Below, in pieces: positions 27,080 through 30,000 of a stretch of DNA of 55,051 nucleotides. Within the stretch, counting starts at the first letter, position 1; each line of letters opens with the position of its first letter. The stretch spans positions 1 to 55,051 of the forward strand of contig VGTH01000036.1 in NCBI GenBank assembly GCA_016874755.1, in the 5' to 3' direction. Source of the stretch: Deltaproteobacteria bacterium (GTDB lineage: Bacteria; Desulfobacterota; Binatia; UBA9968). A program made the translations under genes and the position numbers. Below the pieces are notes generated by a model. The model was given only the letters and a program-made list of their open reading frames with translations, was not told where the DNA came from and ran no database searches.

Positions 27080-30000
27080 ATGTTCGATGTTTCCTACCTA
27101 CCGCTTTGGTGCAAGAGCAATTTTTCTTTTCTCGAAGGAGCCAGTCATCCCGACGAGCTGATTGAAGAGGGGCATCGGCTTGGTTTGCCTGCCTTAGCGT
27201 TAACTGATCGCGATGGGGTTTATGGTATCGTGCGCGCCCATGTGAAGGCGCGCGAATTGGGGATGAAATTGATCGTCGGTGCGCAGGTGAGCGTCGATGA
27301 TGGCTCAGTCATCGTGCTCTTAGCTCAAGATCGTGGCGGTTATGCCAATCTTTGTCGTTTGTTAACCAGGGGGCGATTGCGTTCGGAAAAGGGGGAGAGC
27401 GTTGTTTCTTGGGATGAGGTCTGCGCGCATGCTTCGGGGGTGATTGGGTTGTGGGGTGGGGGTGGAGAGCAGGGGGATGGGAGCAGGGAGCAAGCAGCCG
27501 GAGCGCGCAGTGCAAAGAGCAAGGGGCAAGGGGCCGGAAGTGCGCGAGGTCGCACTAATACCGGCAAGTCAGCCGAGGTGATAGATTCCGGGCCTTCGAC
27601 TGAGCTCAGGACAGGCCTGCGCCGGAATGACGGAGTAAAAGCCCGAGAAATCATTGAATTATTGTGTGATGCCTTTGGCGATCGCCTTTACCTCATGCTC
27701 GCGCGTCATCGGCGGGAGGAGGAGGTCGAGCAAGAAGCGCACCTGCGCGAGGTTGCCAGCCGTTATAACATTCCGCTGCTTGCTGCCAACGAAGTGCTTT
27801 ATCACACGCCGGCGCGCCGGCGGCTACAGGATGTTCTCACCGCAGTTCGCCAGGGTGTGCCAGTCTCCAGTTGCGGTCGCAAGTTAAAGCCCAACGCTGA
27901 ATACGGACTTAAGTCGCCGCCGCTTTTCGGCCAACTGTTTGCTGACGATCCGGCAGTGGTGACACGCACGCTGGAAGTTGCCGAGCGGTGCAGGTTTTCA
28001 CTAAACGAGCTGCGTTATCGCTATCCTTCGGAAAAAATGCCGAATGGGGTGACCTCCGCCGAGTGGCTGCGCCGCTTGACGCTTGAAGGCGCGCAGCGGC
28101 GCTACCCTCAGGGCGTTCCTAACGGGATCCCCCAGCAAATCGATAAGGAATTGGAGATTATTCAAGCGCTCGATTATCCCGGCTACTTTCTCACCATGTG
28201 GGAGATCGTCGAGTATTGCCGCGCTAACAATATTCTTTGTCAGGGGCGAGGTTCGGCGGCCAATTCCGTGGTCTGTTACTGCTTGGGCATTACCGCCGTC
28301 GACCCAAAGCGCATCGGGATGCTCTTCGAGCGCTTTCTCTCACAAGAACGGGCTGAGCCGCCGGACATCGATCTCGATATCCAGCACAACCGGCGCGAAG
28401 AAGTGATCCAGCATGTCTATGAGAAATACGGCCGCGAGCGCGCCGCCATGGTTGCCAACGTGATTCGCTACCGGGCGCGCTCGGCGCTGCGCGATGTCGG
28501 CAAGGCGCTGGGATTTGCCGAAACCGAGTTGGATCGCATGGCAAAGTTTTTATCGTCCTATGATGCGGTATCGCCCCATACGCTGCACAGCTTGGGCGTC
28601 GACACGCGGGCAGGCATGCACAAGCATTTGCTTGAGTTGACCAATGAGATTTTAGATTTTCCGCGCCATCTATCGATTCACCCCGGCGGGTTCTTGCTCG
28701 GCCATGAGCCGGTGCACGATATTGTGCCCATCGAAAATGGCACCATGGCCGAGCGCACGGTGATTCAGTGGGATAAGAATGATCTTGAAGATTTAAATTT
28801 GTTTAAAGTGGATTTGCTGGGCCTAGGGGGGCTGACGCAGCTTGATCTATGTTTCAAACTGTTGCGCGCACATGATGGCATTGAACTGTCGATGGCGACC
28901 ATCCCGGAAGGTGATAGCGCAACCTTCGATCAAATATGCATGGGCGACACCGTGGGTGTGTTCCAGATCGAAAGCCGCGCGCAGATGTCGATGCTGCCAC
29001 GGCTGCGACCAAGAGATTTTTACGATTTAGTGATTGAGATCAGCATTGTCCGTCCCGGCCCGATCACCGGCGGTATGGTGCATCCGTATCTGCGCCGCCG
29101 TCAGGGCAAAGAAAAAGTTGATTATCCACATTCTAGTCTTGAACCAGTCTTGGAGAAAACCCTTGGCGTGCCGCTGTTTCAAGAGCAGGTGATGCGTTTG
29201 GCGATGGTTGCCGCCGACTACACTCCGGGTGAAGCCGATCAATTGCGCCGCGACATGGCCGCCTGGCACCGCACCGGCCGCATGGAGCGCCACCGCGAGC
29301 GCTTGATCACCCGCATGCAGGCCAAGGGCATCAAGCCGGAGTTTGCCCAACGCGTGTTCGAGCAGATTCGCGGCTTCGGCGAGTACGGCTTTCCCGAAAG
29401 CCATGCCGCGAGCTTTGCGTTGATTGCCTACGCGACGGCGTGGCTTCGCTGTCACTATCCCGCTGAGTTTACTTGTTCACTGCTCAACGCCCAGCCCATG
29501 GGTTTTTACACACCGGCGACGATTGTCGGTGATGCGCAACGGCACCATGTGGTGGTTCGACCTGTCGACGTGCAGCAGAGCGAATGGGATTGCACATTAG
29601 AAGAATTAAACAGCGGCCGCAGCAATTTCGCCGTGCGCATGGGACTGCGTTACATCAAGGGCCTGTGCCAAGACGAAGCCGAGGAGATTGTTTTGCGCCG
29701 AGGCCAAGGCGCCTTTGCTTCGCTCGAAGATTTTATTCGGCGCACGCGCGTCAGCGAAAGCACGGCGAGCGCGTTGGCTGAAGCCGGTGCGCTGGAGAAT
29801 CTAACCAAAGAGCGTCGCTCGGCGCTTTGGGACGTGCGCCGATTGGCCCGCCAGCAAAATCAATCGTTACGTTTGTCACCGCGAGAAAGATCCGCGCGCT
29901 TCGAATCCTTGTCCGATTTTGAAGAGGTGCACTGGGACTATCGCATGACCGCGCACAGCCCACGGCGCCATCCGTTGGCGCCGCTGCGTACCGCGCTGGC

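Follow-up and report, generated by a model that had tools for sequence, protein, structure and literature searches.

The gene dnaE2 in the window, as we call the whole 55,051-nucleotide stretch of DNA analysed, carries repeat DNA inserted in frame into a loop of its PHP domain. Judged from its letters, the insert is built of three layers, namely purine-rich iterated words, a CGTC-type REP and a 24-bp unit lying inside the REP. Very probably, short repeats of a selfish or neutral kind have landed in this loop, where they are tolerated and have become stacked.

Host Gene and SOS Cassette

The host gene and its neighbours are the following:

27080–30331, plus strand: dnaE2, which carries the insert and codes for an error-prone polymerase of the C family (1083 aa, open frame)
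25135–26721, plus strand: imuB, partner gene of dnaE2 (Pfam IMS and alignments)
24567–25172, plus strand: imuA-like gene of the cassette, a RecA homologue (Pfam RecA at 28.2 bits, cut-off 27)
23431–24039, plus strand: lexA (Pfam LexA_DNA_bind and Peptidase_S24)

The order of lexA, the imuA-like gene, imuB and dnaE2 on the plus strand reads as a LexA-type SOS mutasome cassette. DnaE2 matches the Pfam families PHP, DNA_pol3_alpha, DNA_pol3_finger, HHH_6 and OB-fold, and residues D429, D431, D433 and D578 of its polymerase core fall in invariant acidic columns of a 33-sequence alignment. The AlphaFold2 model (mean pLDDT 82.5) is similar to solved DnaE structures, with 7pu7_A as the best match (E 7.3e-63). 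The gene is open over its whole length, as an earlier sequence-only reading of this DNA had stated for the frame of the insert. A second DnaE is located at positions 1518–4268 of the window (plus strand; open frame of 1171 aa). It is 33% identical to DnaE2 over aa 179–1065 and is, by sequence, probably the replicative DnaE1. A Uma2-family gene (PF05685; 30370–31110, plus strand) lies directly 3′ of dnaE2.

The Expanded Loop and Its Predicted Structure

The insert and the repeat copies of the window comprise the following features:

27461–27637, plus strand: expanded loop, aa 128–186, replacing a short loop (alignment; AlphaFold2 pLDDT below 50 over aa 129–186)
27452–27551, plus strand: purine-rich iterated words GGGAGCA and GCAAGGG (TRF)
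27584–27632, minus strand: CGTC-type REP, interrupted by the 24-bp unit (identity with a 27-mer of genome G004 after removal of 24 bp; REP characters as given in PMC3733652)
27592–27615, plus strand: 24-bp unit, dnaE2 copy (canonical reading CCTTCGAC-TGA-GCTCAGGACAGGC at 27593–27616)
26401–26424, plus strand: 24-bp unit, second window copy with centre CGG, read in frame as PSTGLRTG (from aa 423) in the imuB linker

In DnaE2 of the window, 69 residues separate LWGG (aa 124–127, from 27449) from DAFGDRLY (aa 197, from 27668). The loop after LWGG is short in 12 of the 16 DnaE2 proteins of the same family, with 13–19 aa where it can be counted; most relatives countable by script have 19 residues, and G008 has 13. 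The excess (69 against mostly 19 residues) is therefore about 50 codons, all in frame and stop-free, and the first estimate of about 60 inserted codons was too high.

The inserted segment is of low complexity and rich in Gly, Ser and Arg. In the AlphaFold2 model, aa 129–186 form one long stretch with pLDDT below 50, flanked by strand 121–125 and helix 183–202 of the PHP domain, and the segment is probably a disordered loop. The PHP metal site is lost in most DnaE2 proteins, according to PMC3919608. Added codons would do little harm in such a loop, which is probably disordered and belongs to a degenerate PHP domain. An intein was rejected as a candidate, as the segment of about 58 aa has neither Cys/Ser...His-Asn splice ends nor a Pfam match, and no known RNA element or self-splicing intron was found by Rfam up to E 0.1 within 27300–27800.

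Anatomy of the Insert

The iterated purine words described earlier are present, and TRF resolves 14-nt and 7-nt units within 27458–27534. The purine content of 27452–27551 is 76%, a level attained by 59 of the 100-bp frames in the window, whose maximum of 80% is found elsewhere. One exact copy of GGGAGCAGGGAGCA occurs in the own genome, the dnaE2 one, along with three copies with one mismatch; for GAGCAAGGGGCAAGGGGCC, the dnaE2 copy is likewise the single exact one, and two more have three mismatches. These two patterns give no support to the idea that the purine words are dispersed through the own genome.

Read on the minus strand, the REP consists of a CGTC tag (GACG at 27629–27632), an 8-bp stem ATTCCGGC/GCCGGAAT and a 4-nt loop GCAG. 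A stem of 8–9 bp starting with AT and a loop of 4–5 nt are seen in the G004 copy, and also in the dnaE2 copy without the 24-bp unit; as it stands, the stem-loop in dnaE2 is broken up by the unit. The CCA-like unpaired tail reads CCA in G004 and CTA in the dnaE2 copy. The repeat is multi-copy, with 184 matches at up to two mismatches in G004, 58 in G001 and a weak 4, all uninterrupted, in G000, the genome of the window. Removal of 24 bp exactly restores GATTCCGGCCTGCGCCGGAATGACGGA, the 27-mer present at the same DnaE2 loop of G004. Three equivalent deletions (27590–27613 to 27592–27615) each restore the G004 sequence, and the borders of the unit are ambiguous by 2–3 nt. The G004 loop keeps the REP without the unit, and in G000 the unit sits at the boundary of loop and stem and adds eight codons.

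The sequence-only reading had taken 27585–27628 for a 44-bp palindrome. The matching ends (ATTCCGG/CCGGAAT) and the perfect 10-bp core CTGAGCTCAG were found as described, but self-complementarity is weak (16 of 44 positions without gaps, a value reached by 10116 44-mers of the window) and folding is no better than that of shuffled sequences (DNA z −0.83, RNA z −0.70), and one structured 44-bp palindrome was rejected on these grounds. The supposed single element resolves, as we read it, into 20 bp of a stem-loop REP with the 24-bp unit nested inside. The unit itself is not a clear palindrome, and the 10-bp core is perfect because the variable triplet of the dispersed repeat reads TGA in the dnaE2 copy. 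Compared with intragenic palindromes of the RPE type, the insert is in frame and open, and its palindromic character is weak.

The DnaE2 Loop in Related Genomes

Inserts in the loop were found in four of the 16 family genomes: G000, two of its congeners (G001 and G004) and one member of another genus, G017. The insert encodes SAIPVKTGIQ...LDSRLGENDG in G001, MDSGLRRNDG in G004 and SVMPAKAGIQ...LDSRLRGNDG in G017; judged by eye, these are CGTC-type REPs, of which G001 and G017 have a pair and G004 has one. Alignment with homologues, the check suggested at the outset, hence bears out the insertion of repeat DNA in frame, the loop being short in 12 of 16 family members and the other three inserts being differing repeats.

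All three members of the genus with a covered DnaE2 loop (G000, G001 and G004) carry REP inserts. In a tree built from 21 DnaE2 proteins after removal of the loop, the presence of the insert needs two changes, and the strongly supported branches force two; G010, the sister of G017, has no insert. G000 does not group with G001 and G004 on this tree, so that a single origin of the insert, shared across the genus, is no more than a possibility. The sequence from LWGG to the REP does not align among these three genomes, and their REPs could be separate insertions. Since the CGTC-REP inserts of G001, G004 and G017 are found at that site, the PHP loop of DnaE2 is a recurrent sink for short repeats. 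A separate expansion of low complexity lengthens the same PHP loop in the DnaE2 of Planctomycetota PMV_2.27 (L061), where the added stretch is Ala-rich and iterated (GTAMGTAMGTAADAAADAAADAAS).

Copies and Empty Sites of the 24-bp Unit

The consensus of the unit is CCTTCGACNNNGCTCAGGACAKGC. The window contains two matches to this dispersed repeat with up to three mismatches, against 0.00 expected. The genome-wide search proposed for the palindrome, made here with the 24-bp unit, did reveal dispersed copies, within and outside recognised genes: the own genome has 29 copies (22-nt core, free centre, at most one mismatch), 17 of them exact, and no match to a reversed control pattern of the core. 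Exact copies occur in 64 of 292 genomes, the own genome counted (e.g., 96 in G010, 66 in G098, 53 in G017, 10 in G119 and 9 in G050, the latter two being single-contig genomes), and 37 stretches of viral contigs carry the unit. The insert thus has its DNA in common with repeats dispersed over very varied positions and reading frames.

Judged by eye, 12 of the 29 own copies directly precede TTTGCG in one resident repeat, which has 78 unfilled matches in G000. In five of the 29, removal of the unit leaves a 16-mer junction that is exact in the 30 unfilled loci examined (out of 208 places in five genomes). Other hosts of the unit, also recognised by eye, read CATGCTGAGC/TTGTCGAAGCATG and CTCC/TTTGCCAAGGAGGGG.

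Filled and unfilled forms were compared by eye in two genes. In imuB, the site is filled in G000 and G010 and unfilled, 24 bp shorter, in G017 and G020. In the carB linker, the unit is present in G088 and G050 and absent at that position in G044, G103, G057 and G119; extra sequence stands behind the unit in G088, CAGAGTC words in G037 and an N-run at the site in G108, and the aligned pieces of G077, G122, G083 and G098 stop before the site. The empty sites in carB, imuB and the resident TTTGCG repeat fit additions of 24 bp. Selection for reading frame is an unlikely cause of the 24-bp length, since such additions also fit the TTTGCG host repeat, and stop-free frames are no special property of the unit, as five or more open frames also occur in 63% of shuffled 24-mers.

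The carB linker before the CPSase oligomerisation domain (L304–L315) is another sink for short repeats. The G050 carB copy is listed with one TAG inside. Contig C1 of G119 has near-equal carB matches at 49024–51804 and 5103005–5105785, near the ends of this 5.18-Mb contig, which are possibly redundant.

The Unit inside Protein-Coding Genes

In the own genome, eleven ORFs of at least 120 aa, in 9 of the 29 loci, contain the unit with at least 30 aa on either side of it. The recognised hosts are dnaE2, imuB and a 2-oxoacid dehydrogenase acyltransferase, the last being the one Pfam match among the nine other ORFs scanned; eight had none. The dehydrogenase gene (L006:1140–2483, plus strand, own contig C2) contains a copy with one mismatch, located between the lipoyl (30–102) and E3-binding (173–208) domains.

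Of 66 copies examined in other families, 20 are placed well within an ORF of at least 200 aa. Fifteen of these 20 ORFs match Pfam (14 above the cut-off), and eight have domains on both sides of the unit, including asparaginase, HsdM, CoA-transferase, acyl-CoA dehydrogenase and carbamoyl-phosphate synthase. The unit, being found in ordinary genes, is thus not confined to repair genes. Its positions point to a preference for linkers and loops, or to survival there.

The ImuB linker was compared in 14 family proteins. The linker region has 35 aa in G004, G015, G007, G009 and G021, contains TTGAACG words in G017, G002, G020, G011 and G012 as well as in G008, where it is longer, and bears the unit in G000 and G010. 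By sequence, the ImuB linker is a recurrent sink for short-repeat DNA too. Outside the family, none of 24 ImuB proteins had the unit (31 were found, and those below 150 bits were dropped). The ImuB of G006 (L353) has a linker region of 102 aa made of several repeats of the TTCGAC/GCTCAG type in both orientations.

Centre Triplet and Possible Mobility

Among 100 distinct exact copies of the unit, 26 different centre triplets were counted. Copies at the same locus in different species mostly agree in their centres, 4 of 18 positions differing in six chosen pairs. These pairs come from 13 cross-genome rows in which both flanks match. Left out were four additional rows from a single locus and three with flanks of about 25 nt, in which the centres differ (TGG, TTC). 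The exact search pattern hides changes at positions other than the centre. At one and the same place, the centre is CGG in the G000 and TGC in the G010 imuB, and TGG in the G050 and CGG in the G088 carB; a locus shared by G103 and G050 has TGG and TAA. In four IS91-like remnants (L004, L005, L013 and L020, near position 1500), the unit stands at one codon with the centres TGG, TGG, GAG and GAT. The likeness to IS91 comes from tblastn, with 37–44% identity in five listed rows, one of them annotated as IS91 family; a Pfam scan of the remnants gave no match. We infer that the centre triplet may be largely set at insertion and drift later; the differing centres in imuB, in carB and at the G103/G050 locus count against it.

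The unit has no GTAG-like tag of the kind carried by RAYT-mobilised REPs. Of 86 Y1_Tnp matches found in 24 genomes, five were inspected, including all three of G000, one of these near a contig end. Their surroundings contained no copy of the unit or of the CGTC REP with up to four mismatches, and on these five RAYT transposases were rejected as movers. No transposase linked to the unit was found. Tentatively, and with rather more doubt than belief, CCTTCGACNNNGCTCAGGACAKGC might be a very short mobile insertion unit not described before, which would keep the frame by its 24 bp, enter repeats and gene linkers, have a centre set at each insertion and then mostly inherited, and be moved by a dedicated enzyme; dnaE2, imuB and the 2-oxoacid dehydrogenase linker would then be three landing sites. 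If mobile, the unit would, in our judgement, be among the smallest such elements.

Proposed Origin of the Insert

The order of events that we favour is as follows. In an ancestor of the genus, the loop would have received the CGTC REP. Later, the 24-bp unit would have been inserted into the REP; the purine words would have been lengthened by slippage. The segment would be translated as a predicted disordered loop of a PHP domain of the kind mostly devoid of a metal site; the insert may therefore be tolerated, with the polymerase presumably still active.

Two of the three recognised own host genes belong to one SOS cassette, which might point to more than tolerance. REP-type repeats could be kept preferentially in mutagenesis and repair genes by altering their activity, the mutator hypothesis of PMC3733652, which has precedent in the literature. 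The unit copies in both imuB and dnaE2, the REP inserts in every genus member with a covered DnaE2 loop and a dnaE2 of Myxococcales TH-Jun18-119 (L115, 4001–8635) would agree with it. The latter has an in-frame unit (ALRRGSGQAGG) at a different site, near aa 523 of the translated match; the same protein has an intein-like stretch (CVVGATRV...LVVHN) after YGFPE, apart from the unit copy. However, the third recognised own gene is a 2-oxoacid dehydrogenase, ordinary genes host the unit in other families (8 of 20 ORFs tested have domains on both sides), and the loop holding the DnaE2 insert is modelled at low confidence and probably disordered, all of which makes this explanation improbable.

A long-standing protein linker, with codons that merely resemble repeats, is scarcely credible: the low-complexity Gly/Ser/Arg make-up of the segment would suit a linker, but the segment is missing from 12 of 16 family members, its DNA is common to dispersed repeats in varied places and frames, and the same peptide encoded by other codons, named beforehand as the refuting observation, was not seen in the 38 of 84 DnaE2 rows (at least 58% identity) read residue by residue. 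An assembly or sequencing artefact, such as an adapter-like sequence, has next to no probability, for although most genomes are draft assemblies and the variable triplet resembles a barcode, the unit occurs in both single-contig genomes and in the viral contigs, and different species have copies at the same locus. Tolerated landing of stacked short repeats is thus the reading we retain.

Comparison with Known Repeat Systems

The letters and peptides of the unit had no match in the text of the open-access papers searched; a description elsewhere is possible. In these papers, PMC3733652 included, we found no account of a 24-bp unit nested in a REP, of an unfilled form preserved in a relative, of repeated inserts in a single PHP loop or of a second copy in ImuB of the cassette. 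Together these features would illustrate the growth of a protein sequence by stacked short repeats, with the unfilled form kept in a sister species. Translations of the unit (PSTxLRTG, LRxxSGQA, ACPExxRR, PVLSxVEG and FDxAQDR) can occur in ORFs and mislead annotation and alignments.

Rickettsia palindromic elements (RPE-1) are palindromic DNA lying in frame within protein genes. RPE-1 is longer, according to PMC3733652. The insert had been thought to differ in wording from the Rickettsia elements; the outer REP instead has the CGTC tag, stem and loop of a superfamily that, according to that source, takes in Neisseria dRS3 and Rickettsia RPE-4 and RPE-6. REPs inside genes, many of them for replication and repair and DnaE2 included, were reported there in 2013 (PMC3733652), so that a REP in dnaE2 is not new.

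The purine words at 27452–27551, with GGGAGCA, are akin to short tandem iterated words of the slippage type, and so are TTGAACG in the ImuB linkers and CAGAGTC in the carB linker of G037. The outer insert shares with the CGTC REPs, as PMC3733652 describes them, the CGTC tag, an 8-bp stem with AT first, a 4-nt loop and an intragenic site that includes DnaE2. It differs from them in its 24-bp interruption by another repeat family and in CTA for the CCA tail, and its own genome has only four close uninterrupted matches.
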